DNA from: Crocinitomicaceae bacterium
GTDB taxonomy: Bacteria; Bacteroidota; Bacteroidia; Flavobacteriales_D; Crocinitomicaceae
Assembly: GCA_002709305.1 (NCBI GenBank)
Contig: PAQM01000005.1
Coordinates: 1 to 47,374, forward strand
DNA length: 47,374 nucleotides
Direction of reading: 5' to 3'
Of this stretch, positions 32,672-47,360 are shown piece after piece (the stretch's first letter is position 1; the number at the start of each line of letters is the position of its first letter). A program made the position numbers and the translations under genes. The notes beneath the pieces are model-generated. The model was not told where the DNA came from. It was given only the letters and a program-made list of their open reading frames with translations, and searched no databases.

Positions 32672-32944
32672 ATGTCACAAATAGAAACATCTTTAGAAGA
32701 GTTATTGTTAGAAACAAAGGTTGAACAAAGAAATTTAATCGTTTTAAATGATGATTTTAACACCTTTGATCATGTAATTGAATCTCTAGTTAAGGTAGTA
32801 AAACATACAAGAATTCAGGCGGAACAATGTACATTAATCGTTCATTATAAAGGAAAGTGTCATGTTAAGACTGGTAGCTATTCTGAATTAGAGCCTATGT
32901 GCACTGCACTCTTAGATCGAGGAATTACAGCAGAAATAGATTAG
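32672..32944 (+). CDS. clpS: ATP-dependent Clp protease adaptor ClpS
   Basis: A 90-aa adaptor that brings N-degron substrates to ClpAP/ClpCP. A flexible acidic N-terminus is followed by LIVLNDDFNTFDHVIESLVKVV, which includes the ND-D-T ligand pocket. EQCTLIVHYKGKCHVKTGSY and LEPMCTALLDRGITAEI complete the fold. Length is typical. prmA and clpS are often near neighbours in Bacteroidota; here two giant genes lie between them. tRNA-Arg follows at once. Confidence 0.93.
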   Translation: MSQIETSLEELLLETKVEQRNLIVLNDDFNTFDHVIESLVKVVKHTRIQAEQCTLIVHYKGKCHVKTGSYSELEPMCTALLDRGITAEID

Positions 32945-33014: not shown

Positions 33015-33088
33015 GGCCCCGTAGCTCAACTGAATAGAGCACTACATTACGGCTGTAGAGGTTTCAAGTTTGAATCTTGACGGGGTCA
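33015..33088 (+). tRNA. tRNA-Arg (anticodon ACG)
   Basis: Acceptor GGCCCCG (33015-33021) pairs with CGGGGTC (33081-33087), including one G-U, with discriminator A at 33088. The anticodon stem CTACA/TGTAG encloses TTACGGC, giving ACG. T-arm TCAAG-TTTGAAT-CTTGA is intact. 74 nt, no encoded CCA. A terminator follows at once. Its 3' end is the left copy of the direct repeat that marks the accessory region to the right. Confidence 0.95.
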
Positions 33089-33103
33089 CAAAGCACCATT
33101 CCA
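33084..33103 (+). repeat. Putative att repeat, copy A (tRNA-Arg 3' end)
   Basis: The 20-mer GGTCACAAAGCACCATTCCA covers the last 5 nt of tRNA-Arg and the left arm of its terminator. It recurs without mismatch at 36736-36755. This is the typical form of an integrase attachment core at a tRNA 3' end; I infer integration of the 33.1-36.7 kb block. Confidence 0.7.
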
Positions 33104-33124
33104 CCTAAGTTTGGTGCTTTTTTT
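33090..33124 (+). terminator. Terminator of tRNA-Arg
   Basis: AAAGCACCA (33090-33098) pairs with TGGTGCTTT (33112-33120), followed by a T run. A near-identical hairpin follows repeat copy B. Confidence 0.85.
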
Positions 33125-33160
33125 ATTTTATCAAATGTATTATGTTATTATTCTTTAGTA

Positions 33161-36100
33161 CTATACAAAAGTGACAAATTCGTTATAAATCTTTGCAGGT
33201 ACTTTATTTTCTAAATTCATAGTAAATAAGATTGGCTTGGATCCCTCGAAAGAATCTACGACACCTTTACCAATGTAAATGAAATCTTGAGACTCACCGT
33301 CCATTACCTTGAACTTCCTGACGAATAAATGAAGATCAATGTTATATGAAACGTGGTTGATTATATTTTTTCCTTGTGTAGTATCTAGACCTGTTTTATC
33401 TGGGCTATCCCATTGAAATATTGAGTCACTAATAAATTTGTCTCTGAAAGGTGTAGCATCTTCGTCTTTATGTAGGTCAATGAAAAGATAGTATTCTTTG
33501 ACCTTGCCTGTGGAATCATCAAAGTTAGGGATTGTTGAACCTCTAAAAGCACTATGTTTTTTATTGTAGTTACAAGTTAGAGCAACTTTTCTCATGCTGT
33601 ATTGCGTAAAAGGTTTAAGGTCTGGATAATTATGGTCCCGATTAGCAAACTCATTTTCATACCTACAAATTCCATAGTTTATAGAGTCAAGGAATATTTT
33701 TTTGATATGTTCTTCTTTAATTACAGAATTTAAGTTGTCAGATAATCTAAAGAAATCAAAGTTGTCATTGGAATTTCCAATAATTGGATACTTTTTGTTA
33801 TCTGCTGCATCAAAAAATACTCCTGATAACAACTGTAGACAATTTATTAGTGTCTCATCTGAAATATTATTTAGATGTTTTAAGCACTCATTTTTTAATG
33901 TGATTTTAGAAAAGCTTCCTTTTGTAACGATTAATTTAAATGCTATTAAATCAACAAGTCTTTTTGCGGGAAGGTGGTCTTCAATTAACCTTAAGAATTT
34001 TTCAGCTACCTCGTTTGAAAAGAACTTGTTTTGAGTGAAATTATCTTTTTCAACTCTTTTCTGAAAAGCCAGAAACGTTTTTGATTTACTATCTCTAAAG
34101 CCCATAGGGTCAGGTGCACCATCAACTGAGAAAAAATCTAATAATGTTGGGATTCGGTTTCCTAATGATAACTTAAAGGATAAGTAGGCTTCCTTGTTAT
34201 GTGCAAATGAATTAAAATTTTCATTTTCAATTTGTTTCAGTATTTGCTCTTTTGCAATTTTATCTAATTGAATATAAGTACATCCTGGAAGGTTCGAAAA
34301 GTCAGTTTTAACTGATACTTTAAGAGAGTCTTTATCGAAAAATTTCCGACCATTTAAAGCTATTGCAAGCATAAAAGATTTGGAGTAATTTCCAATAAAA
34401 TCTAATATAGTTACAAAGCTTTTAGATTTATGTTTTCTGAGCCCTCTACCAAGTTGTTGGATAAAAATAATTGGAGACTCTGTAGGTCTTAGCATCAAAA
34501 TTGTGTTGATGCTCGGTATGTCTATACCTTCATTAAATATATCAATCGTGAAAATTATTTCTAAGGTATCTGAATCCGATTCTAATTTTTGAATGGCACT
34601 CTTTCTAACTTCTGGTTTGTCATCACCTGTTAGATAAGTAGATACAATTCCTCTGGAATTAAATTCATTTGACATAAATACTGCATGCTCCACAGAAAAA
34701 CAAAAGCCAATCCCCCTTCTTTTGTCTCCCTCGTATCCATAAAAATTCATTTTATTGATTACATGTTCAACACGTGAGTTTGTCTGTAATTGTTTAGCAA
34801 CTTCAGCTATTTCTTTCATATTTACACCTGAATAATCAACACCTTCCGCATCTGTTATTCCAAAATAATGAAAAGGAACTACAAGGTCTTCATCTAGTGC
34901 ATCACGAAGTCTTATCTCAATCGCAATATTGTTATCGAAAGTTTCATAGATGTCCTGAGCGTCACCACGTTCAGGTGTTGCTGTCATTCCTAAAAGAAAT
35001 TTTGGATTGAAGTATTTAATAATACGTTTGTAGGTGTCACCACCTATATGATGTGCTTCATCGATAATGATATATTCAAATTCAGTAGGTGAAAATTTAT
35101 TTTTATAGTTATCAAGCGAAATGTTAGTAGAGAATAAGTAGTCTGCTTCAAAATCTTTGCGATTTCCTGAAAGGATACCGTATTTCTTATTTTCTTTCTT
35201 TGGTATAATGTTGTTAAATGAATCGATAGCTGCGTTCAAAATATCTTCTCTATGAACGATGAAAAGCATCTTATTAGGCTTTACTTTAGCTACATCAAAA
35301 GCTGACATGTAAGTTTTTCCAGAGCCTGTAGCTGCAATCACTATTGCTTTTTTTTCACCGTACAATCTAAGTCTCTCCAGAGAGTTTAATGCATCTACTT
35401 GCATACTGTTCGGCTTAACTTCATTTAATTCTTCTAGAAATAGATTATTTTTTCTTTCGATTGACTTCAATGAAAGAAGAAATTTTTCATATTGATTTAA
35501 CACCTCATCTGTTGCAAAACTGGAAATGTTCCAGATTCTTTCAAAATCTTCTAATATTTTTTGAATTATTTCGTCCTTGTTTTTTGAAATAAATGAAACA
35601 TTCCATTCAATATTGCTCATTAAGGCACTTTGGGTAATATTTGAAGAGCCAATTATTACTTTGAAAAACGCTTCATATTCGAAAATATATGCTTTTGGGT
35701 GGAACCCCTTATTTTTCTCAGCAATAAATATTTTTGTTTTAATATTTTTAAAATTATTTATTTCCCTTACCGCTTTAGGTTCAGTAAAATTAAGATAGGT
35801 TGAGGTAACTACTTTTCCTTCGATTCCAAGTTTTTCAGCAGCAGCCAGTTGCTCTAATAACAGTTGTACTCCACTAAATGTAATAAAGGCTACGTTGAAG
35901 TAAAAACTCTTACAGCCGATCATATTGGTTTTAAGTTCCTGTAGAACATTCTCATTGCTATTATTGAGAATCAATCTATTTTCCATCTCAGATACGAGTT
36001 TTTGAACAATAGGTATATCTGCAGCTGCCCAGTCTAATCGTATCAGGTCCTTAGGTTCAAGCCATTTACAGTCTATGTGCTCTGTCAGTTTTAGATTTCG

Positions 36101-36376
36101 ATCTTTGCAGTTACATAAAAATGCATGCATCGTTAGATGAAAGTCAGGGTATTGATGCTCTACTGTTAGGAATTTTTCTTTTGGCATAACATCAAGCATT
36201 AGCTCTTCTTTAAGCTCTCTAATCAAGGTTTCTTTGAGCGTTTCACCTTCTTCTATTTTACCGCCTGGAAATTCAAATTTTTCTGAAATGTAACTGAATT
36301 TGTTTTTACATCTCTGTACACAAAGAATTTCTCCTTTTTCCATAACGATCGCCGCAGCAACTTCTACTCTTTTCAT
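33161..36376 (-). CDS. NUDIX - PLD-like nuclease - SF2 helicase - DUF3427 fusion protein (candidate defence protein)
   Basis: A 1071-aa multidomain protein. I chose ATG 36374-36376 (MKRVEVAAAIV), the natural NUDIX N-terminus; the open frame extends 26 codons upstream. NUDIX: G39, E45, R53-E54 and E57-E58 of the box are kept, but its final Gly is Met. PLD-like domain: H226-x-K228 and GSSNIT (243-248). Helicase: AATGSGKT (348-355), DEAH (439-442), TAT (465-467), FNEGIDIPSI and QLGRGLRKHK (641-650). The rest (about 690-1071) fits DUF3427, with IFQWDSPDKTGLD near the end. It should hydrolyse a nucleotide, cut nucleic acid and translocate on it. Sole intact gene of block 1, next to tRNA-Arg, slightly higher G+C than the backbone. 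Confidence 0.85.
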   Translation of the reverse strand: MKRVEVAAAIVMEKGEILCVQRCKNKFSYISEKFEFPGGKIEEGETLKETLIRELKEELMLDVMPKEKFLTVEHQYPDFHLTMHAFLCNCKDRNLKLTEHIDCKWLEPKDLIRLDWAAADIPIVQKLVSEMENRLILNNSNENVLQELKTNMIGCKSFYFNVAFITFSGVQLLLEQLAAAEKLGIEGKVVTSTYLNFTEPKAVREINNFKNIKTKIFIAEKNKGFHPKAYIFEYEAFFKVIIGSSNITQSALMSNIEWNVSFISKNKDEIIQKILEDFERIWNISSFATDEVLNQYEKFLLSLKSIERKNNLFLEELNEVKPNSMQVDALNSLERLRLYGEKKAIVIAATGSGKTYMSAFDVAKVKPNKMLFIVHREDILNAAIDSFNNIIPKKENKKYGILSGNRKDFEADYLFSTNISLDNYKNKFSPTEFEYIIIDEAHHIGGDTYKRIIKYFNPKFLLGMTATPERGDAQDIYETFDNNIAIEIRLRDALDEDLVVPFHYFGITDAEGVDYSGVNMKEIAEVAKQLQTNSRVEHVINKMNFYGYEGDKRRGIGFCFSVEHAVFMSNEFNSRGIVSTYLTGDDKPEVRKSAIQKLESDSDTLEIIFTIDIFNEGIDIPSINTILMLRPTESPIIFIQQLGRGLRKHKSKSFVTILDFIGNYSKSFMLAIALNGRKFFDKDSLKVSVKTDFSNLPGCTYIQLDKIAKEQILKQIENENFNSFAHNKEAYLSFKLSLGNRIPTLLDFFSVDGAPDPMGFRDSKSKTFLAFQKRVEKDNFTQNKFFSNEVAEKFLRLIEDHLPAKRLVDLIAFKLIVTKGSFSKITLKNECLKHLNNISDETLINCLQLLSGVFFDAADNKKYPIIGNSNDNFDFFRLSDNLNSVIKEEHIKKIFLDSINYGICRYENEFANRDHNYPDLKPFTQYSMRKVALTCNYNKKHSAFRGSTIPNFDDSTGKVKEYYLFIDLHKDEDATPFRDKFISDSIFQWDSPDKTGLDTTQGKNIINHVSYNIDLHLFVRKFKVMDGESQDFIYIGKGVVDSFEGSKPILFTMNLENKVPAKIYNEFVTFV

Positions 36377-36393
36377 TAAATAGTTTTGGAAAT

Positions 36394-36401
36394 CAAATTT
36401 A
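36394..36401 (-). promoter_or_regulatory. Candidate -7 element (TAAATTTG on the minus strand)
   Basis: Read on the minus strand, TAAATTTG matches TAnnTTTG and lies 17 bp before the chosen ATG (36376) of the NUDIX-helicase gene. It supports the shorter start. No -33 TTG was found. Confidence 0.35.
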
Positions 36402-36476
36402 ATTATTCTTATTTTAAAATCATTTAATGAATGCATTATACACCTTATATGCATATAGGTATTATTGTGTTAAGAA

Positions 36477-36677
36477 GGTTTTACCAGTAATGGATCCGGA
36501 GTTTTCTTAGAAATATTTAACATCTAGGAGGAAGGAACAGTGAGTAACACGTTCTCTAATATGGTCTAAGGGAACTTTGAAGGAGAAGCAGTGCAGATAA
36601 TAAAGGATTTGTTGGCTTACTGTGAAATGGATACGTTTGCTATGGTAAATATTTTGGAGGTTTTAAAACGAGTTTGA
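36477..36677 (+). pseudogene. Remnant resembling the C-terminus of a DUF2779-type nuclease
   Basis: One reading frame from 36477 to the TGA at 36675-36677 gives 66 codons with two internal stops (TAG, TAA). It reads GFTSNGSGVFLEIFNI*EEGTVSNTFSNMV*, then GNFEGEAVQIIKDLLAYC and EMDTFAMVNILEVLKRV*. The stretch YCEMDTFAMVNILEVL resembles the end of DUF2779 proteins (RNase H-like exonuclease fold), where YCxxDTxAMV is typical. The upstream 5' part is missing. It lies between the fusion gene and repeat copy B, so it is cargo debris in block 1. The family assignment is from memory of the motif and is moderate. Confidence 0.5.
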
Positions 36678-36709
36678 ATTCTAATTTTTTAAGATCATTT
36701 AGGTCATTC

Positions 36710-36755
36710 AAAAAGTTTGAACTCTTGCCAGCCGAGGTCACAAAGCACCATTCCA
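36710..36755 (+). repeat. Putative att repeat, copy B
   Basis: 36736-36755 equals the tRNA-Arg 3' end 20-mer. 36710-36745 equals copy C at 42079-42114 in 35 of 36 positions (T36726 versus C). The left part carries the T-loop string TTTGAA, but the T-stem and anticodon half are absent, so this is a tRNA 3' fragment and not a gene. It separates block 1 from block 2. Confidence 0.7.
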
Positions 36756-36776
36756 ATTAGGGTTTGGTGCTTTTTT
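36742..36776 (+). terminator. Terminator hairpin of repeat copy B
   Basis: AAAGCACCA (36742-36750) pairs with TGGTGCTTT (36765-36773), then a T run. Same stem as the tRNA-Arg terminator, with a slightly different loop. Confidence 0.8.
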
Positions 36777-36837
36777 ATTTTAAGTATGGTTAAATCTTCT
36801 AGATTAATTGAATTTTAGCTATTCGTGTAGTGTTAGT

Positions 36838-38490
36838 CTACCTTCTTGTTGCAATTGATGTAATAATACCAAAGAGAACAACCACACTACTGCCTATTAG
36901 ATTATACATTAGGTAGCTCAAATCAAATAAGCCATAAAGCTTAAGAAAATGAATCGTTATAACTGTGATTTGTCCAATAATACCCGCAATAAGAGCTACT
37001 TTGGCTCCTACTTTTTTGAAAAAGAAAGCCAAGAGAAATACTCCTAAAATGGTTCCGTAGAATAAGGATCCCAAAATATTAACTAATTGAATAAGATTTT
37101 CGAATAATCCGGCTGTTAGAGCAATGATAATAGCCAATATACCCCAACCAACGGTCAAAAGCTTACTTACCCTCAAGTCTCGTTTATCGTTATCATCCTT
37201 TGACCAGAATTTTTTGTAGTAATCAACTGTTGTAGTTGCCGCTAAGGCGTTTAACTCTCCAGCTGTTGAAGACATGGCAGCTGAAAATATTACAGCCAGA
37301 AGCATCCCAATGAGCCCTGATGGAAGAAAGCCCAAAATAAATGTCAAGAAAATGTAGTCGCTATCTTTCTGTTCGAAATCAGGGTCGATTCTATTTAATT
37401 GGTTCTTATAGGCTGCTCGGACAGAATCTTGAGCGAATTGAAGTTTTTGAATGCTCTTTTTATTTTTTGAGTAATCGAGGAGCAAAGCTTTTTTACTCTC
37501 AAAAATTGCATCATAGGTTGATTCTATCTTTTGAAGGTTTTGCTCTTCCAAGGATGTCATTTCGACTTTCTGAGGATTAAAGACGATCGGCGGGCGATTG
37601 AATTGAAAGGACACAAATACCATTATACCGATTAAGAGAATGAAAAACTGCATTGGTATTTTAACAAGACCGTTGAACATTAGGCCTAGTCGAGATTCCT
37701 TTAGAGTTTTACCGCCCAAGTATCGTTGCACCTGCGATTGATCAGTTCCAAAATAGGACAGAAATAAAAACACGCCTCCTGTTAGTCCAGATAGAAGCGT
37801 GTATCGATTTGTTATATCTGGAGATAAATTAATGATTTCCATTTTACCCAAGGCGCCAGCAATATCAATACCTTCTGAAAAACTAATGGTACTCGGGAAG
37901 CTTTGAAGAACAAAATAAAAAGCTAAAAACATTCCGGACATTATCACACCCATTTGCCATTTTTGTGTTAATGAAACTGCTCGGCTTCCACCGGAAACAG
38001 TATATATAATTACAAGTCCACCAATAAGCAGACAGGTCAATTGTAAGTTCCATCCTAATAAGGTAGACAATATGATAGATGGTGCGTAAATAGTTATACC
38101 TGCTGCAAGTCCTCTTGATATCAAAAAAAGAGATGAAGTAAAGGAGCGTACCCGAACATCAAAGCGTTCTTCTAGATATTGATATGCTGTGATTACATTT
38201 ATTTTGTAGTAAATGGGGAGAAAGAAGACAGAAATGAGAATCATGGCAATTGGCAATCCAAAATAGAATTGGATAAAGCCCATTCCGCTTTCGTAAGCTT
38301 GCCCGGGGGTAGATAAGAAAGTTATCGCGCTAGCTTGAGTGGCCATTATGGACAGACCGATAGTGGCCCAATTTTCTGAGTTTCCTTTGAGATATGAGTC
38401 TATGCCTATTTGCTTTCGTGTTTTCCAACTGCCGTATCCTGCAATGATCAGCAGGGTAGACATTAAAACCACCCAATCTATCACGCTCAT
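36838..38490 (-). CDS. Sodium:solute symporter (SSS family)
   Basis: A 550-aa inner-membrane transporter with about 13 hydrophobic helices. Family features are SYLKGNSENWATIGLSIMATQASAITFLSTPG near the start (Na-site region of helix 1-2), SGGSRAVSLTQKWQMGVIM, FLSYFGTDQSQVQRYLGGKT and AVIFSAAMSSTAGELNALAATT. A hydrophilic coiled-coil insertion of about 80 residues (about 300-380) interrupts the helices, as in the Bacteroidota branch. Substrate unknown; the upstream PIG-L deacetylase suggests an acetylated sugar or glycan fragment. The start overlaps the stop of the 39-aa gene (ATGA). Located in the higher-G+C block 2. Confidence 0.9.
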   Translation of the reverse strand: MSVIDWVVLMSTLLIIAGYGSWKTRKQIGIDSYLKGNSENWATIGLSIMATQASAITFLSTPGQAYESGMGFIQFYFGLPIAMILISVFFLPIYYKINVITAYQYLEERFDVRVRSFTSSLFLISRGLAAGITIYAPSIILSTLLGWNLQLTCLLIGGLVIIYTVSGGSRAVSLTQKWQMGVIMSGMFLAFYFVLQSFPSTISFSEGIDIAGALGKMEIINLSPDITNRYTLLSGLTGGVFLFLSYFGTDQSQVQRYLGGKTLKESRLGLMFNGLVKIPMQFFILLIGIMVFVSFQFNRPPIVFNPQKVEMTSLEEQNLQKIESTYDAIFESKKALLLDYSKNKKSIQKLQFAQDSVRAAYKNQLNRIDPDFEQKDSDYIFLTFILGFLPSGLIGMLLAVIFSAAMSSTAGELNALAATTTVDYYKKFWSKDDNDKRDLRVSKLLTVGWGILAIIIALTAGLFENLIQLVNILGSLFYGTILGVFLLAFFFKKVGAKVALIAGIIGQITVITIHFLKLYGLFDLSYLMYNLIGSSVVVLFGIITSIATRR

Positions 38491-38606
38491 ACCTTATATA
38501 TATTTGTAATCCATAGGTAAATAGCAATTTGAAAGAACAAAAATATAAGAAGTCCCCAATACCATGCTTTCCAATTTACATTCTCTTTTTTCTTTTTTTC
38601 GTTCAT
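38487..38606 (-). CDS. 39-aa single-pass membrane protein between PIG-L and symporter genes
   Basis: A complete short gene on the minus strand: ATG at 38604-38606, TGA at 38487-38489. The protein is MNEKKKKENVNWKAWYWG followed by LLIFLFFQIAIYLWITNIY and KV. It has a Lys-rich cytoplasmic start and one Trp/aromatic-edged helix. Both ends overlap neighbours by ATGA: its ATG overlaps the PIG-L stop and its TGA overlaps the symporter ATG. This makes translational coupling and real expression likely. By position it could be a small accessory subunit of the symporter. No family name known to me. Confidence 0.78.
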   Translation of the reverse strand: MNEKKKKENVNWKAWYWGLLIFLFFQIAIYLWITNIYKV

Positions 38607-41071
38607 GGCTTATAACTCAATAAATTAGCAAATAATCGATAAGCACCGACTACTCCTTTAGGAAGTTCTCGAAAAAAGGAAATACCGGTGTAAACAAATT
38701 GACCTTTCCCATATTGGGCTACTATAAGCCCTCCCAAAACAGGATCTTCACCTTTATCCGACCATGAAAATAAAGGGGTGTAATTTTCGTCCCATTCACC
38801 TGCAAAGTATAAACCCCGTTCTTGGACCCAACCTTCAAAATCATCTTTTGTAATTTTGTTTGGTAGATTCAATATTGGGTGATCTGGATATAGAAAAGTG
38901 ACCGTTGCATCTTCTTCCGTTACTCGTTTTCTTGATAATTTAAATGGGTACGGACCGAATTCATTGTCTCGGATAGATCTTGACGCTGTGTTGTATTGCA
39001 TGATTAAGTTGCCACCTTTGTGAACATAATTAAACAACTTTTCATGGAAGTTCATTAATTGTGGGTTTACGTTGTATATTCTGATGCCTAGAACAACAGA
39101 ATTGTAATTGGATAACTCTATATCAGAAAGGTCTTCCACTTCAAATGTTTCTATTTTAAACCCGAGTTGAGCAATGGCATTTGGAACAACATCATCTACT
39201 CCTTTTATATATGCCACTTTCCCTTGCTCGATTTTAGCATCTAGGGAAATACATTTTAACACAGAAGGTCTAAATACAATTTGGGTAGGAATGTGATCAT
39301 AGCTAATTTCTTTTTGAGACGATAATACTTCGCCATTGGCTAGCAGTTTTAATGATCCAGATTTGGCTCCTTTGTTAGAATTCAATTCCAATTCTACCCA
39401 TTTTTCACTTTGTTTCTTTTCGATATAAACATTAAAGATTGAAGGTTTGACAATCCATCCTTCAGGTGCCTGTACCTCAATTTTTGTTGTCAAACTATCA
39501 TCAAAAGCGTGGACTTTTACCCTAATCTTTTTCAATTTCCCAGGTTTTGATATTAGGAGTTGTTCCTCGAAACTGCAGGTGAATTGGGGTGTAATAATTA
39601 CAGGTCTTTGTCTTTCGCCATAGGCTGGGTCTCTCCATTTATAAATTGCTGGAACTTTGTAGCTAAATTTGTGCTTCCCAATTTGTAGGTTAAATGTTGC
39701 TTCGAAAGAAGGTTTGCCTTCCGCTAAACAATAATTTGCAGAATCTTGAACATCAAATAAGTTAGAAAAGGGTCTTTCCAACCAATATGGATTATATATT
39801 CCAATTTTACCTGAAGATTGCACTTCCTTTTCCAATGGTATATTAGTAAATATCGTTTCATCATATGTGTAAGTTTCACCTGTGCTAAGTTGAATTGAAT
39901 TTAATATGATCTCCTGGTTAGATCGATTCAATAGCCGAGTATTAACATTAAACTGCTCATTAGTTATAAAGGCAAAATCTTTCCCGAGTAGTTCTAATCT
40001 TAGCCCAAGGCAGTCAACAATAATTTGCTTGCAACGCTCTATTTTTTCATTTTTCATAAAAGAATCAGGCATTAATTGCAACCCCTTCAAAATCTCAAGT
40101 AGGGCAGGGACATTTTTCTCAGTTTCCTTGAAATTGAAGTTGTCGATTAAGGCGTCGAATTGATCTTCAAATTTTTCATCGAGCAATGATGTCCATGTTT
40201 GCTCTTTTTTTTCAAAGAACGACCTTTCGATTTTCTCACCAGCCAAGTGTTTGAAGTACTCTGTTCTACTTCCTCTTTCAGTTATGGCACCAAATCCTTG
40301 GCATTTGTGCTGGCTTCTGGCAATTGTTCCTATTTCATTGTACGACATGCCAAGTGTCTCATTGTACCCCCCGATTTCCATAACGATATAATTTGGATCA
40401 TCTTCTGAAATGTCTTTTATATTCTCATTCCACCAGTAAGAAGTGTTCCAATAAATAGAGGTTGTTTGCCAAGTCCCAAATTTGGAAACTTGATGAGGTA
40501 AAAATTGAGGGTCAGAAGCTTTCGTGAATGCTTCAATCGCTAATAGAGCAGATGCAGTATGGTGTCCATGTCCTGCTCGCTCATCAGGGGGGAACCTTGT
40601 GATAATTACGTCTGGCTGAAATTGACGAATGATTAGAACTAGGTCGTGCATTAACTCGTCTTTACCCCATAATTCGAAGGATTCTTCTGCAGATTTAGAA
40701 TAACCAAAATCTAAAGCTCTGGAGAAGTATTGTTTACCTCTATCGTAGGACCTTGCCTTTAAAAGTTCCTGGGTTCTAAGCACACCTAGGTTTTCACTTA
40801 AGTCATCTCCAATCAAATTTTGACCACCATCACCACGGGTTAAACTAAAATAAGCTGTTTCTGCCTTTTCTCCAAGGGAGAAGTATGCAATTGCTCTTGT
40901 GTTTTCATCGTCAGGATGAGCTGCGACATAGAGTACTTTTTTTAGAGAATGAAGTTTCTGTAAATTGACATAAATAGATGAGCTACCTTCATTTGAAAAT
41001 AAATTCGAGTGAAAGAATACTGACAAAATTAAAATACTTATAAATCGCATGCTGCTGTTTTGAATATGCAT
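38603..41071 (-). CDS. Secreted PIG-L family N-acetyl-glycan deacetylase (822 aa)
   Basis: A large exported PIG-L (LmbE-like) protein. The signal peptide is MRFISILILSVFFHSNLFS; the start could be 41071 or the in-frame ATG at 41050, which gives a cleaner signal. Zinc site: AAHPDDENTRA (about 51-61) and the RAGHGHHTASA stretch. LTRGDGGQN is also family-typical. After the ~330-residue catalytic part come beta-rich domains and a C-terminal domain that looks like a glutamine-amidotransferase-type fold (NYNSVVLGIRIYN; GGNLIMQYNT). Predicted to remove acetyl groups from amino sugars in the periplasm. First gene of the operon with the 39-aa protein and the symporter. Confidence 0.88.
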   Translation of the reverse strand: MHIQNSSMRFISILILSVFFHSNLFSNEGSSSIYVNLQKLHSLKKVLYVAAHPDDENTRAIAYFSLGEKAETAYFSLTRGDGGQNLIGDDLSENLGVLRTQELLKARSYDRGKQYFSRALDFGYSKSAEESFELWGKDELMHDLVLIIRQFQPDVIITRFPPDERAGHGHHTASALLAIEAFTKASDPQFLPHQVSKFGTWQTTSIYWNTSYWWNENIKDISEDDPNYIVMEIGGYNETLGMSYNEIGTIARSQHKCQGFGAITERGSRTEYFKHLAGEKIERSFFEKKEQTWTSLLDEKFEDQFDALIDNFNFKETEKNVPALLEILKGLQLMPDSFMKNEKIERCKQIIVDCLGLRLELLGKDFAFITNEQFNVNTRLLNRSNQEIILNSIQLSTGETYTYDETIFTNIPLEKEVQSSGKIGIYNPYWLERPFSNLFDVQDSANYCLAEGKPSFEATFNLQIGKHKFSYKVPAIYKWRDPAYGERQRPVIITPQFTCSFEEQLLISKPGKLKKIRVKVHAFDDSLTTKIEVQAPEGWIVKPSIFNVYIEKKQSEKWVELELNSNKGAKSGSLKLLANGEVLSSQKEISYDHIPTQIVFRPSVLKCISLDAKIEQGKVAYIKGVDDVVPNAIAQLGFKIETFEVEDLSDIELSNYNSVVLGIRIYNVNPQLMNFHEKLFNYVHKGGNLIMQYNTASRSIRDNEFGPYPFKLSRKRVTEEDATVTFLYPDHPILNLPNKITKDDFEGWVQERGLYFAGEWDENYTPLFSWSDKGEDPVLGGLIVAQYGKGQFVYTGISFFRELPKGVVGAYRLFANLLSYKP

Positions 41072-41188
41072 AAAATTATAAATATTGATGCGTAAAGACC
41101 AATAAGCGGCTTAAAAATAATTTTATTTCTTATTTCAATTCTCTGTTTTAATTGAATTCGTAATTTTATAAAAATAAATCATAAGAAG

Positions 41189-42037
41189 ATGAAAACTATT
41201 CTTACAGCCTTCAGCTGCTTTACGTTAATTGCTATTACAGCACAAATTGAAACACCACAACCAAGTCCTTCTGCGAAATTGACGCAATCAGTTGGTTTGA
41301 ATACAATTGAAATTGAATACTCTAGGCCATTGAAAAGAGATAGAGTCATTTTTGGTGATCTTGTTCCTTATGACAAATTGTGGAGAACAGGTGCAAATAA
41401 AAACACAGTACTTATCACGAGTGATTTGATGATTTTTGGCAAAGACACTTTACTAGCCGGAAGTTACGCAATTTATACGAAACCAATTAAAGATGCTAAT
41501 TGGGAAGTGTACTTTTATTCAGACACGGAAAACTGGGGTACTCCAAAAAGTTGGGATGATTCTAAAATAGCCTTAAAAACCATGGCCGCTTCTCAAGAGA
41601 CTAAGGATGTTGTTGAATCATTCACAATAAGTCTAGATAACGTAGATTCAGATGGAGCTGATTTAGTTCTTACTTGGGATAAATCAAAAGCAACTATTTC
41701 ATTCAAAGTGCCAACAAATGATAGAGTTGCTGCTAATATTAAATCCATTATGTCAGGACCTACTGCAGGAGATTATTACAAGGCGGCTGAGTACTACCTT
41801 TCTCAAAAGATTGAACTTGCAACAGCGTTAGAATATATTAATAAAGCATTGGAGAAGAGAGATCCCCAACCTTTTTGGTATCTAAGAAAAAAAGCTTTGA
41901 TCGAAGCGGAAATGGGTGACTACAAGAAAGCTGTTGAAACTGCAAAATTATCTCTTGCTGCGGCAAAAAAAGCTAATTATGACTCCTATGTTAAATCTAA
42001 TGAGAAGTCGATTGAAGAGTGGAGCAAGAAAAAGTAA
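41189..42037 (+). CDS. DUF2911 domain protein
   Basis: A 282-aa exported protein: signal peptide to about residue 19 (ITAQ), then the DUF2911 domain. Typical strings are SPSAKLTQSVGLNTIEIEYSRP, LVPYDKLWRTGANKNTVLITS, LLAGSYAIYTKP and WEVYFYSDTENWGTP. The last ~90 residues are TPR-like helices (YKAAEYYLSQ; ALEYINKALEKRDPQPFWYLRKKALIE). Function of DUF2911 is unknown; it occurs widely in Bacteroidota. Divergent from the PIG-L gene, inside block 2. It ends 42 bp before repeat copy C, whose hairpin would terminate it. Confidence 0.9.
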   Translation: MKTILTAFSCFTLIAITAQIETPQPSPSAKLTQSVGLNTIEIEYSRPLKRDRVIFGDLVPYDKLWRTGANKNTVLITSDLMIFGKDTLLAGSYAIYTKPIKDANWEVYFYSDTENWGTPKSWDDSKIALKTMAASQETKDVVESFTISLDNVDSDGADLVLTWDKSKATISFKVPTNDRVAANIKSIMSGPTAGDYYKAAEYYLSQKIELATALEYINKALEKRDPQPFWYLRKKALIEAEMGDYKKAVETAKLSLAAAKKANYDSYVKSNEKSIEEWSKKK

Positions 42038-42078
42038 AAACAAAAGCAAGTAATTAAATCAGGGATTTAAAATCCTCT

Positions 42079-42114
42079 AAAAAGTTTGAACTCTCGCCAG
42101 CCGAGGTCACAAAG
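42079..42114 (+). repeat. Putative att repeat, copy C
   Basis: Matches copy B (36710-36745) at 35 of 36 positions and shares GGTCACAAAG with the 3' end of tRNA-Arg. The hairpin that follows has a different stem sequence, so this copy probably came with its own element. It bounds block 2 on the right. Confidence 0.65.
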
Positions 42115-42145
42115 TCTCATTCTATAATAGTTTGAGACTTTTTTT
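42111..42145 (+). terminator. Terminator hairpin of repeat copy C
   Basis: AAAGTCTCA (42111-42119) pairs with TGAGACTTT (42133-42141), followed by a T run. Position relative to the repeat is the same as for copies A and B, but the stem is unrelated. Confidence 0.8.
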
Positions 42146-42216
42146 GTTTTATATTTTAATTCTATAGTAACTTCTTCTTATTAGTATGGGTCATGAAATG
42201 GACCCTGTTAAATTGA

Positions 42217-42540
42217 TTATCTCATTATGCTTTCCAAAACATTGATACAATTATTTGCGAGATCGTTCAATATCGGACAAACAGTTTCTAAGAGTTCACG
42301 ATCAGATTGAATATTATATGATTTTTCTCCGTGGAAAAGGTTGTTTCTAATCCTATTTAGAATGTAGATTAGGGTTTTATTGATGTCTTTTACATTGGCG
42401 TATTTATGTTTCTTATCATTTAGCCAAAAACCTGAGAATTCCTCATGTTTTTTTAATATAAAGTTTCTTTGATTATTCTCTTTTACATCTAAAACATATA
42501 TTGTTCTAGTATGTTATTTATTAATAAATTTTGACACCAT
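42217..42540 (-). pseudogene. HEPN-like protein remnant with an internal stop
   Basis: On the minus strand an ATG at 42538-42540 begins MVSKFINK, then TAA (42514-42516). The same frame stays open for 98 more codons to TAA at 42217-42219. It includes NFILKKHEEFSGFWLND, INKTLIYILNRIRNNLFHGEK and DRELLETVCPILNDLANNC. The string RNNLFHGEK has the R-x4-H form of HEPN ribonuclease domains, in an all-helical context. No alternative start could express the open part at full length. I read it as a nonsense-mutated or truncated toxin/defence gene; a single sequencing error is an alternative. It fills half of the otherwise gene-free 42038-42724 stretch. Confidence 0.55.
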
Positions 42541-42724
42541 AATTTCAATTTTTAAAAGTAAATTTATTTTTAAACAACATAATCTATTTACGAACATAAA
42601 TATTACTACATTTTTTAGTTGTGTATAGATTTTTTGAATTAAAAATGTAAAAACATATTATTATATAAATCTACTTTTTTTCTTATAATTATAATTAGAT
42701 TTATCTCACAATAACACTATTAAG
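42541..42724. other. AT-rich gene-free stretch before the DUF2130 gene
   Basis: Very A/T-rich, without an open frame, repeat or clear TAnnTTTG element that I could defend. It presumably holds the promoter of the DUF2130 gene. Together with the HEPN-like remnant and repeat copy C it makes up the 687-bp gap between DUF2911 and DUF2130. Confidence 0.4.
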
Positions 42725-43969
42725 ATGAACGAAATAAGTTGTCCTCATTGTAAAAAAGCATTTAAAGTTGACAATGTAGGGTATGCAGATATTCTTAAGC
42801 AAGTAAGAGATAAACAGTTTGAAGAAGAATTGAAAGTTAGGCTATCCTTAGCAGAAAAAGAAAAGAATAGTGCTGTTGAGCTCGCAGAGTCGAACATCAG
42901 AAATAGTGCAAAAGACCATTTGTTAAAAAAGGAAAAAGAAATGAATGCAATTCTTTCTTCAAAAGATTCTGAGATAGCAGAAATGAAGTCCAAAATTAAA
43001 AACGCGGAAATTCAAAAAGAGCTAGCGATTCGTAAAGCATTAAAAGAAACAGAAAAACAAAGAGACAGTTTATTAAATGATTTGAAAAGTAAAGACATAG
43101 AGAGGCAGCTTTTTGAGAAATCTTTAAATGAAAAATTCCAAGCGGATTTAAAAACAAAAGATGACATTATTAAAATGAGAGATGAAGAAATAGCATTTCG
43201 TAAAGAAATGAAGCAAAAGCTTTCAACTAAAATGATTGGAGAAACACTAGAGCAGCATTGTGAAATTGAATTCAATAAACTTCGAGCAACGGCTTTTCAA
43301 AATGCTTATTTTGAAAAGGATAATGACTCAAGGCTAGGTAGTAAAGGCGATTATATATATCGAGAAACAGATGAATCGGGTAATGAAATTATTTCGATAA
43401 TGTTTGAAATGAAGAATGAAGGTGATGAGACTGCAACAAAAAAGAAGAATGAAGATTTTTTAAAAGAACTTGATAAGGATAGAAAAGAAAAGAAATGTGA
43501 ATATGCTGTTTTAGTTTCTCTTTTAGAAATAGATAATGAATTATTTAATCAAGGTATTGTTGATGTTTCTCATAAGTATGAAAAAATGTATGTTATTCGT
43601 CCTCAATTTTTTATACCAATTATTACTTTGCTTAGAAATGCAGCTATGAATTCTATGCAATATAAAGCGGAACTAAGCTTAATTAGAAGTCAGAATTTAG
43701 ATATTACAAACTTTGAAGATAAGATTAATAGTTTTAAAGAAGGTTTTGCTAGAAATTATGAGTTAGCTAGCCGTAAGTTTAAAAAAGCTATTGATGAGAT
43801 AGATAAAACAATCACACATCTTCAAAAAACAAAAGAAGCATTGCTTTCTTCAGAAAATAATTTGAGGCTTGCTAATAACAAGGCAGATGATTTAACAATA
43901 AAAAAATTAACTAGGGGTAACCCAACGATGAAGGCAAAGTTTGATAAACTTGATGAAAATCAGGATTAA
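42725..43969 (+). CDS. DUF2130 domain protein
   Basis: A 414-aa cytoplasmic protein. It starts with a zinc-ribbon half-site CPHCKKAF (Cys6, Cys9). A long coiled coil (about 25-165) follows, then the DUF2130 core: [61 protein letters not shown] and [14 protein letters not shown]. The core has a D-x(n)-E-x-K-like arrangement (GDYIYRE, FEMKNE) that may be a nuclease-type fold, but this is a reading and not proof. DUF2130 genes are frequently found in phage and accessory DNA, which suits its place at the right edge of this region. Confidence 0.88.
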
Positions 43970-43976
43970 AAATGTT

Positions 43977-45005
43977 TTAGTTTAATTGTATTATTTTTTC
44001 TTTTGTTCCGTCGCTATAAATTAAAATAAGTGGAGTATTAGTTTTAAATTTTGTTTCTCTACCCATCATGTCGATTATCTTGACTAACTTTTTTGAATTA
44101 TTATTATCTGCTTGATTGATTTGACTTATTTGAGAACATTCTTTTCCATTGAGAAAGTCCCAAATTATTTGCGGAGAGTAGAAATCCATATTGATTGTTC
44201 CAACACCACCCCAGATGGTTAGTATACCTGGCCATTGATGTCCACCTCCGATTACTTTAATATGTTCTAATTCTGCATTATCACAGTTTAAATAGGTATG
44301 TCTTTCAGCATACGATAGATCTAGAATATTTATGTTAGGCATTTGATCTATATTAGGTATTTCATCACAGTTATAGAATGATTTCCAAGTCTGCATAAGC
44401 TCATCTACTGAGATTCCCGTTGAAGGTGAACCATTATAGCTTACAACTCCATCAAGTGTGCCGTGAATATGAAGAATATCTGTATTATTTTGGGGGTTAC
44501 AATTTTGGCTTACAGAATGACTCATTGTTCCAGCAACAGTTGCTGCCCCTGCATAACATTGTGTGGATTCACATAATATCTTGTAACACATAAACGCTCC
44601 ATTGGAAATCCCAGTTAGATATTGTTTTGTTGGGTCTGTATTTAAATTGTTTTGCATATATATCGATAATTCCTCAATAAAACCAAGATCATCTACTTGT
44701 GAATTAATTATATCCATATCTGCATTCCAAGAAGCATTAATTCCATCAGGATAACAAACAATAAAGTTATCTGATTCGGCTATAGAATTAAATCCTGTAA
44801 TATTCATCAGACCTGATCCTGTTTGTGTAACACCATGTAATACTATTAATAGAGGTAACGATTCTGACGGTGTCCAAGATGATGGTTTGTAATAGACAAA
44901 ATTACGTGTTAAGCCATTGTGAATGAAGCTATCATTAGTTTGGGCATTTAAAGTTAAACTGACTAATAATAATAAGATCGATATAATTTTTGTCGTTAAT
45001 TTCAT
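43977..45005 (-). CDS. Secreted PHB-depolymerase/LpqC-type esterase with T9SS-like tail
   Basis: A 342-aa exported alpha/beta-hydrolase. The start chosen is ATG 45003-45005 (MKLTTKIISILLLLVSLTLNA signal peptide); the frame extends to a GTG at 45050. Nucleophile TGISNGAF (Ser134), acid in HGTLDGVV (Asp185) and GGGHQWPG (His256) make the triad, with VLHGVTQTGSG as oxyanion region. Members act on polyhydroxyalkanoates or feruloyl/acetyl esters; the substrate is open. The last ~38 residues (KKLVKIIDMMGRET...YSDGTKEKIIQLN) match the tail of the LRR protein at 11-790. The stop is 7 bp from the convergent DUF2130 stop. Confidence 0.87.
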   Translation of the reverse strand: MKLTTKIISILLLLVSLTLNAQTNDSFIHNGLTRNFVYYKPSSWTPSESLPLLIVLHGVTQTGSGLMNITGFNSIAESDNFIVCYPDGINASWNADMDIINSQVDDLGFIEELSIYMQNNLNTDPTKQYLTGISNGAFMCYKILCESTQCYAGAATVAGTMSHSVSQNCNPQNNTDILHIHGTLDGVVSYNGSPSTGISVDELMQTWKSFYNCDEIPNIDQMPNINILDLSYAERHTYLNCDNAELEHIKVIGGGHQWPGILTIWGGVGTINMDFYSPQIIWDFLNGKECSQISQINQADNNNSKKLVKIIDMMGRETKFKTNTPLILIYSDGTKEKIIQLN

Positions 45006-45043
45006 CCGAGTAAATATAGTGATTCTATTTCTTAAGCCTACTA

Positions 45044-45075
45044 TTTGCACAATATCATTAAAAAAGCTAGTTTTG
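45044..45075 (+). promoter_or_regulatory. Promoter of the membrane pyrophosphatase (TTTG-N20-TAGTTTTG)
   Basis: TTTG at 45044-45047 is 20 bp before TAGTTTTG (45068-45075), which matches TAnnTTTG. The start would lie near 45082, 23 bp before the ATG at 45105. This supports the downstream ATG over the TTG at 45045. Confidence 0.65.
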
Positions 45076-45104
45076 CACCCTTAAATTATTTAAATAAAGA
45101 TATT

Positions 45105-47360
45105 ATGAAATCACTATTTATTTATATGCCAATTGTAGCAGCTATAATTGGATTGTTATATATGTTAATGAAAAAGTCTTGGGTAATGAAGCAAGACGCA
45201 GGAGATGGTAAAATGAAAGAGATCTCTGATTATATATATGAAGGTGCTTTAGCCTTTTTAAAAGCTGAGTATAAATTACTGTCTATTTTTGTTATTGCTG
45301 TAAGTATTGCTCTTGCTGCTGTTTCATATATTGTTCCAACGACCCATATTTTGATAGTTGTTGCATTTATTTTTGGTGCACTTTTTTCTGCTTTTGCAGG
45401 AAATATTGGGATGAAGATTGCAACAAAAACTAATGTAAGAACAACTCAAGCGGCTAGAACAAGTTTACCAAAGGCATTGAAGATATCTTTTGGAGGAGGA
45501 ACTGTGATGGGGTTAGGTGTTGCTGGTCTTGCTGTTTTAGGGCTTACTGGCTTCTTCATTATTTTTTATAGATATTTCATGAATGGTGAATGGACATCTG
45601 CTGAAGATATGACTATTGTTCTTGAGACTTTAGCTGGTTTTTCATTGGGTGCAGAATCAATTGCTTTATTTGCTAGAGTAGGTGGTGGTATTTATACTAA
45701 AGCTGCAGATGTTGGAGCTGACCTTGTAGGTAAAGTTGAAGCGGGTATACCTGAAGATGATCCTAGAAACCCTGCAACAATAGCTGATAACGTTGGTGAT
45801 AATGTTGGTGATGTTGCCGGAATGGGTGCTGACCTTTTTGGTTCGTATGTTGCAACTGTATTAGCTGCAATGGTACTAGGTAATTATGTGATTATTGATA
45901 ACGGTTTCTATGATAATGGATTTGGAGGAATAGGGCCTATTTTACTTCCTGTTGCAATAGCAGGTGTTGGTATTATTATCTCTATGATTGGAACAATGTT
46001 AGTTAGTATTAAAAGTAACGATGCTAAGGAAAAAGAAGTAATGGGAGCATTAAATATAGGTAACTGGGTTTCTATAGTTCTAGTAGCAATATTTAGTTAT
46101 ATTCTTATAATGTGGATGTTGCCAGAGTCTATGAATATGAATTTTTTCGGAGAAGGTTCTAAGGATATTTCTTCGCTTAGAATATTTGGTGCTGCTGTTA
46201 TCGGTTTGATAGTAGGTGGTGTTATATCATCAGTAACTGAATATTATACTGGATTAGGGAAAAAACCAATTTTAAAAATTGTTCAACAATCAAGTACAGG
46301 TGCTGGAACTAATATAATTGCTGGTTTGGCTACAGGAATGATTTCAACTTTCCCAACGGTACTTTTATTTGCAGGCGCAATTTGGGGTTCTTATGCTTTG
46401 GCTGGATTTTATGGAGTTGCGCTTTCTGCATCAGCTATGATGGCAACAACTGCAATGCAGTTAGCTATTGATGCTTTTGGTCCAATTGCTGATAATGCTG
46501 GTGGGATTGCTGAGATGAGTGAGCAAGACCCAATAGTTAGAGAAAGAACAGATATATTAGATTCAGTAGGTAATACAACTGCTGCAACAGGTAAGGGTTT
46601 TGCAATTGCTTCAGCTGCATTAACTTCTTTAGCCTTATTTGCTGCTTATGTTACATTTACAGGAATAGAGGGAATTAATATCTTTAAAGCACCTGTGTTA
46701 GCAATGTTATTTGTTGGTGGTATGGTGCCAGTTGTTTTTTCTGCATTAGCTATGAATGCAGTTGGAAGAGCCGCAATGGAAATGGTTCAAGAGGTTCGTC
46801 GTCAGTTTAAGGAAATTCCTGGTATAATGAAAGGAAAGGCTAAGCCAGAGTACGATAAGTGCGTTGATATTTCTACTAAAGCTTCTTTAAAACAAATGAT
46901 GTTACCAGGTATATTGACTATTGGATTGCCTTTAGTTATAGCATTTTTACCATTAGCATTTGGTATGCAAAAAGAAATTATTGCTGAGATGCTTGGAGGA
47001 TATATGGCTGGTGTTACTGTATCTGGAGTTCTTTGGGCTATTTTCCAAAATAACGCTGGTGGTGCATGGGATAATGCAAAAAAATCTTTTGAAGCTGGTG
47101 TTATGGTAGATGGAGAGATGACATATAAAGGTTCTGATGCTCATAAAGCAGCAGTTACTGGTGATACTGTAGGAGATCCATTTAAAGATACATCAGGACC
47201 TTCTATGAATATATTGATTAAGTTAACTTGTTTGATTGGTTTAGTTGTTGCTCCAATACTTGGAGGTCATACTAGCGAAGATCATTCCACAACAAATAAT
47301 ATAGAAAAATCTATATCTATTGATTTGGATGATGAAATAAATCCATTAGAAGAAGTATAA
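45105..47360 (+). CDS. hppA: Membrane-bound ion-translocating pyrophosphatase (K+-dependent type)
   Basis: A 751-aa integral membrane enzyme that couples PPi hydrolysis to cation pumping. Catalytic signature: [20 protein letters not shown], then [21 protein letters not shown] second acidic loop is [15 protein letters not shown], and a third contains [15 protein letters not shown]. The K+-site position reads [10 protein letters not shown], with Ala (A493) where K+-independent enzymes have Lys. The semi-conserved gate Glu is missing from DLFGSYVA in helix 6, but a Glu (E184) is present in helix 5 (GAESIALF). From memory, this is the K+-dependent H+-pumping subgroup. The C-terminus carries an extra acidic tail of about 30 residues (from GGHTSEDHS). 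Confidence 0.95.

Follow-up and report, generated by a model that had tools for sequence, protein, structure and literature searches.

Several described systems bear on how small islands build up at a single attachment site. In the part of a review that deals with them, cis-mobilizable elements (CIMEs) are elements that have lost their integration and transfer genes but kept their att ends, and a new element entering the att site of the target gene generates a tandem (PMC5704250). The account of the additive flexible genomic island of 'Ca. Methylopumilus' describes repeats of the 3´-terminal 20 nt of a tRNA-Lys, and the section on tycheposons in the same paper presents cargo islands that start at a tRNA and use the tyrosine recombinase xerD (PMC10872708). 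For the archaeal pTN3, the passages on integration place attP within the integrase gene, so that integration splits the gene and rebuilds the tRNA, and show a catalytic tyrosine mutant (PMC5495485). The locus analysed here belongs to a Crocinitomicaceae bacterium (contig PAQM01000005.1 of assembly GCA_002709305.1, positions 1 to 47,374); this whole stretch of 47,374 nt is called the window. Its tRNA-Arg(ACG) gene is followed by what is very probably a tandem array of elements integrated at the tRNA 3´ end by a large serine recombinase (LSR), with two units lacking the LSR body left in the window. The comparison set comprised 34 genomes of the genus, including the window genome (G000); genomes are cited by G numbers, contigs by C and loci by L. 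T9SS sorting domains in one relative agree with a placement in Bacteroidota.

The target tRNA-Arg(ACG) (33015–33089, + strand, ARAGORN) lies behind clpS (32672–32944, + strand; Pfam ClpS, 3.3e-18), the conserved left flank of the site. Directly after the tRNA comes RE1 (33084–33132, + strand), a terminator-bearing element end of the T type that shares 95.9% identity over 49 nt with the T-type end found in other species. An earlier note on this DNA, made from the letters alone, had reported that the 20-mer at 33084–33103, on the 3´ side of the tRNA, recurs at 36736–36755. This exact recurrence was confirmed, and the third repeat copy lies at 42102–42151. GCCAGCCGAGGTCACAAAG occurs twice in the window, compared with 0 across 100 shuffles. 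A terminator at equal offset behind each copy, as the note also claimed, is indeed present as a 9-bp stem and a T-run (fold z of −5.1, −5.5 and −4.3), while a consensus terminator scan with a loop limit of 8 listed none of the three hairpins.

The description of the copies as tRNA 3´ end plus terminator holds for the homology, but it misses a further part. Copies 2 and 3 have 44 nt in common (91%), extending leftward past the tRNA homology, and the tRNA is without that left part; therefore, tRNA tails alone do not account for them. The additional part is the other element end, LE, represented by LE1 (36701–36741, + strand), which was found with the LE pattern and encodes VTSAGKSSNFLND in antisense, and by LE2 (42070–42110, + strand), whose 23-nt core has 0 mismatches to the consensus and whose antisense encodes VTSAGESSNFLED. 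LE1 runs into RE2 (36736–36782, + strand), a second T-type end with terminator that matches a T-type end of G126 (93.8% over 48 nt). LE2 runs into a U-type terminator-bearing flank (42105–42178, + strand; 81.9% over 72 nt to G126 C2 at about 593.56 kb), which is either the end of a third element or the old chromosomal flank; the integrations at the site number two or three. As in other tRNA islands, the target tRNA is intact, and the distal boundary is marked by part of a tRNA 3´ end.

Within the 2.3-Mb window genome, exact copies of CGRGGTCACAAAG are confined to the three repeat places, with one-mismatch matches at three more. AAAG...CTTT stems are found in many tRNA terminators of the family, which would suit an ordinary dispersed terminator family; this origin is nevertheless extremely improbable, being contradicted by exact places that number just three in the genome and all lie at the site.

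The LE pattern was detected at 16 places in 8 of the 34 genomes, with a gap of 12 nt between its two fixed parts in all 16, in a search that permitted 8–20 nt and yielded one match with a reversed control pattern. Ten of these copies share their stretch with a tRNA-Arg, one of them (in G099) inverted relative to the tRNA, and another lies 0.5 kb from a tRNA-Ser. A second array is found at tRNA-Arg(TCG) on C1 of G126, with LEs at 4.5, 6.5 and 11.2 kb and small units in between, and G138 has a single-gene unit at tRNA-Arg(TCG).

Read in antisense, LE encodes VT[SPL]xGxSSNFLED followed by a stop, and this frame is open in 19 of 19 distinct rows, although 16 of these came from exact-pattern matching, so that the likeness of their core is due to selection. 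Mean variation at 18 unconstrained bases is 0.47 at antisense codon position 3, compared with 0.28 and 0.29 at the first and second (22 rows chosen for containing NFL, with one LSR tail represented by three copies), which favours LE being coding sequence, though not independently of relatedness. Because the antisense LE shares strand, frame and VT start with the end of the LSR genes of G120 and G131, and in view of the tail of an LSR in G126, we infer that LE is the C-terminal tail of an LSR gene, left at the far end upon integration. A derivation of LE from a degraded tRNA T-arm was discarded, since alignment to the T-arm needs a 5-nt gap, and the fixed spacing and the antisense frame fit a coding tail.

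The genus-wide LSR search (cut-off E 1e-30) returned 15 rows in 8 of the 34 genomes. Fourteen of these loci were checked for tRNAs (all but L198, which overlaps L193), a set that does not extend to LSRs beyond the cut-off, such as two PF07508 matches in G147. At 12 of the 14, the 3´ end of the LSR gene and a tRNA encoded on the complementary strand overlap. The tRNA is Arg(ACG) in three cases, Arg(TCG) in five, Leu(CAA) in two, and Arg(TCT) and Met in one each. Both G120 and G131 carry an intact LSR at tRNA-Arg(ACG), with a reading frame ending in FSARVTSSGFKPETSTAVM, the final part of which is the antisense strand of the tRNA. The stretch common to the LSR end and LE in G120 is CCTGACGAGGTCAC, and an LSR of G126 located off tRNA ends in SEGDLSNFLEDDLKLI. 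An LSR with a Recombinase domain stands beside one att end in G120, G131, G126 and G018. C55 of G120 holds the tRNA, an S-type end and the intact LSR, and C23 holds LE and the displaced flank. Both ends lie on one contig in G018 (C31), with LE at 576–606 and the LSR and tRNA-Arg(TCG) near 26.9 kb, about 26 kb apart. The first gene past the tRNA in G126 is a degraded LSR (PF07508, 9.7e-12).

No LSR match at E 1e-30 and no PF07508 match was obtained in the window genome; therefore, what links the LSR to the cassettes is the end sequence and not an enzyme in place. PF07508 was also unmatched in G083, G091, G138 and G156. Of these, G091 and G138 hold exact LE copies, so arrays stay behind after LSR loss. 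The absence of a visible integrase, already remarked in the earlier note, was borne out by profile searches, which found none in the two window blocks; the three PF00589 matches of the genome all lie off the window contig. The array shows no integrase of its own, such as a tRNA island may carry. Taking the end sequences together, the recombinase behind the array is most likely an LSR.

Comparison with relatives indicates that the site is shared and variably occupied. The tRNA-Arg(ACG) adjoins clpS at 29 of the 30 clpS loci scanned. Among 22 genus genomes with a readable tRNA, the contig ends within 31 nt of it in five, and the other 17 continue with an S-type end (five), a T-type end (three, including the window genome) or other sequences (nine). 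The right flank, formed by an esterase gene (− strand) and a pyrophosphatase-like gene (+ strand) (43977–47360, tblastn), is common to the window, G126 and G018. The distance from the tRNA to the esterase is 10.9 kb in the window versus about 33 kb, with different genes, in G126, and the interval is divided between two contigs in G018. In G175, the cluster located past the pyrophosphatase in the window instead begins 5.6 kb after the tRNA, with no esterase or pyrophosphatase matches.

The sequence behind LE on C23 of G120 is a displaced flank. It directly adjoins tRNA-Arg(ACG) in G012 (89% over 74 nt), G075 (97% over 32 nt, where the contig stops) and G165 (77% over 66 nt), and it is also found 3´ of the tRNA in G099, with an inverted LE beyond. 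The comparison of G120 with G012, G075 and G165 gives the picture expected of an inserted versus an uninserted site. Comparing this interval across relatives had been proposed as a check of successive integration at the tRNA. It revealed other occupants and, for the LSR element of G120, a displaced flank abutting the tRNA, but among the relatives compared the window's own interval was never found empty. Together with the further arrays bearing the same ends, the alternative occupants and the displaced flank support successive integration.

These data also bear on the possibility that the tRNA tail and terminator were copied by local duplication or by a rearrangement mediated by insertion sequences (IS) rather than by site-specific integration. 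IS6-like transposase genes (IS240 DDE domain) do occur in the G126 occupant; the Pfam search, however, found no IS in the window blocks, LE is present in copies 2 and 3 but absent at the tRNA, it turns up again in 8 species and at two different tRNA-Arg sites, and the displaced-flank comparison argues against such an origin, which is thus very unlikely.

Two arrangements at related sites are recorded separately. On C14 of G147 (L066, 4374–19510), the tRNA-Arg(ACG) lies on the opposite strand, separated from clpS by about 15 kb, and has two LE-like copies downstream of it; an inversion at the site is possible. On C37 of G099 (L161, 157–436), LE is inverted relative to tRNA-Arg(ACG) across a palindromic terminator with GGTCAC on both sides, as if the element had entered backwards or had been inverted.

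Several observations weigh against an LSR origin of the window array. The T-type RE of the window cassettes holds no open LSR frame, and the LSR-bearing elements of the site have an S-type RE; therefore, the LSR is tied to the window cassettes by LE only. Two of the 14 LSR loci, both in G126, lie away from a tRNA, and 5 of the 16 LE copies have no tRNA in their stretch (two in G147, over about 40 kb around, and three near contig starts). The two ends of the G120 element sit on separate contigs. Furthermore, the T-type RE in other species carries the 3´ tail of a XerA/integron-integrase-like tyrosine recombinase, which keeps a rival explanation alive: a recombinase of this kind (about 383 aa) would have inserted the T-type cassettes, and LE would be shared since the same tRNA end serves both recombinases. 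The T-type terminator pattern occurs at 15 places in 7 of the 34 genomes, and one of these places lacks the GGTCAC context. The C-terminal tail on T-type ends comes with a palindrome that is also found after full-length tyrosine recombinase genes in G091 and G156, and an integrase scrap (a 35-residue match) lies 1.3 kb from the tRNA in G126. The T-type ends of the window, however, comprise only about 48 nt and lack the tyrosine recombinase tail, whereas LE copies next to either end type show the LSR-like tail in their antisense. None of the tRNA ends with LE was seen to adjoin a full tyrosine recombinase, and the three tyrosine recombinase matches of the window genome are on other contigs. Insertion by the tyrosine recombinase is therefore considered unlikely, and the LSR remains the preferred agent.

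Some features of these recombinases deserve mention in their own right. One comparison drew on L094 (201–428), L092 (3319–3546), L167 (554–645) and L170 (9283–9360): the T-type ends of G126 and G018 share 99.6% identity across 228 nt, after which they part at the palindrome, which in G091 and G156 is placed after the XerA/integron-integrase-like gene. Islands of the G126/G018 type possibly carry an integron-like platform. An odd fusion is encoded at L055 (8341–10548), where a cytosine methylase carries at its N-terminus an Arm-DNA-bind_5 domain of the kind found in tyrosine integrases. The LSR loci of G126 that lie off tRNA (L162, 4975–6576 and 18345–19871) are two copies of another LSR, one of which has a T-type end and an IS6-like gene nearby.

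The two blocks delimited by the repeats do differ in cargo, as the earlier note had it, but the contrast in composition is modest: block 1 has 31.9% GC and block 2 36.2%, with 28.2% in the left flank and 34.3% at the right end, and 3.5-kb windows over the entire window span 26.3–37.2%. Between copies 1 and 2 there is a single gene, plus a relic behind it. This gene (33161–36454, − strand) encodes NUDIX, PLD, helicase and DUF3427 domains in one chain (Pfam; PADLOC mREase_IV, 8.4e-159). The part of the SauUSI literature consulted gives the architecture of that enzyme as PLD, helicase and DUF3427 (PMC3874153), so that the product is a SauUSI-like type IV restriction enzyme with an additional N-terminal NUDIX domain. 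Its closest relatives in named genomes belong to other phyla (Cetobacterium, Arcobacter and Aliarcobacter, 42–45% identity). The relic (36439–36674, + strand) is the 3´ end of a DUF2779/Cas4-like gene, matching in two pieces and two frames (tblastn, E 2.4e-20) an intact counterpart in the G126 occupant of the same site. In addition, PADLOC detected restriction and candidate defence genes in the G126 and G131 occupants.

Cassette 2 contains genes for a sodium:solute symporter (SSF; 36838–38490, − strand, Pfam 1.8e-43), a PIG-L domain protein (38603–41071, − strand, Pfam 8.3e-14) and a DUF2911 protein (41189–42037, + strand, Pfam 2.6e-42). The view of this block as plainly foreign cargo is unsupported, since relatives keep the trio elsewhere: PIG-L is present in 16 of the 34 genomes, and all three genes are together in seven of eight regions examined, the eighth being cut by a contig end. 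Neither LE, RE nor tRNA-Arg was found in these eight regions. The neighbours of the trio mostly differ among relatives, and its ancestral location was therefore not found. In G083, the trio stands alone on a 5.9-kb contig that may or may not belong to the tRNA-Arg site. Between LE2 and the right flank lies a DUF2130 gene (42725–43969, + strand, Pfam 3.9e-87), which is present in 4 of the 34 genomes, including the window genome, and is either mobile or resident. Upstream of it, 158 nt (42524–42681) are 74.5% identical to the start region of the G126 DUF2779 gene, a second relic of that cargo gene.

Compared with the described systems, the window resembles CIMEs and the accretion of integrative and conjugative or mobilizable elements (ICEs and IMEs) in keeping its LE and RE ends without a recombinase. 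It differs in that the cassettes hold one to three genes, the probable recombinase is a serine and not a tyrosine enzyme, and no conjugation genes were identified in the window, where no search was aimed at relaxase or secretion genes. In the legend to a figure of the ICE/IME review, specific sites of serine recombinases are placed within genes and those of tyrosine recombinases at gene ends (PMC5704250). The array shares with the 'Ca. Methylopumilus' island the recurring tRNA 3´ ends, small variable content and additive growth at one tRNA; the account of that island assigns no recombinase (PMC10872708), whereas for the window array we propose both an end sequence and a recombinase family. Tycheposon cargo likewise begins at a tRNA, the difference being the xerD tyrosine recombinase. 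In contrast to an integron cassette array, the units are bounded by LE and RE and the window blocks lack an integrase, though no search aimed at attC was made.

Integrases of the pTN3 type are tyrosine recombinases. Unlike pTN3, LSR elements would exchange no more than the final ~20 codons, and their gene remains open after integration. Phage LSRs (TP901-1, Streptococcus phages) are similar in their Resolvase and Recombinase domains and a YTRVS motif near the N-terminus; in the collections searched, however, the best phage matches reach only 26–27% identity and plasmid matches are all below 60%. A search of viral contigs with the LSR of relatives gave no matches.

The following order of events is deduced from the sequences, as are the making of the window joints by an LSR and the former contiguity of LE with an LSR gene. 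The LSR would join the element circle at the GGTCAC end of the tRNA, which would retain its 3´ end and gain the element's own terminator (RE), while the old flank would come to lie distally, beyond LE. LE itself would consist of the final ~20 codons of the recombinase gene, severed from the remainder upon integration. A later element at the same tRNA would then produce the order tRNA-RE-cargo-LE-RE-cargo-LE. In the window, both units would have lost the recombinase body and kept their ends and cargo, namely the type IV restriction gene and the transporter/PIG-L/DUF2911 trio.

Accretion at tRNAs is known already, and the unusual part is a tRNA-devoted LSR family whose gene ends inside its target; a literature search found no report of such an LSR with a gene overlapping its target, which is not proof of absence. 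More tentatively, and with a low chance of being right, this may be a family devoted to tRNA 3´ ends with its attachment site inside its own gene, combining a tail swap with cassettes moved in trans. The enzyme encoded by the circle would end in SSNFLED, and integration would give it a tail supplied by the tRNA gene in antisense (VTSSGFKPETS). Because direction in this class of recombinases is governed by C-terminal regions, the exchange could serve as a built-in integration/excision switch. Small cassettes without a recombinase would then be mobilized in trans and, as a counterpart of integron cassettes anchored at tRNAs, would deliver defence genes.

Arrays of small islands without an integrase are common at tRNAs and are usually left unassigned. 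The end sequence of the window array ties it to a recombinase family found in relatives, and a short pattern therefore suffices to map orphan arrays in any genome. If the exchange of gene tails matters, it would offer a simple idea of how a serine recombinase senses the integration of its element. For these bacteria, restriction and other defence genes would be placed in a shared tRNA site whose content turns over.

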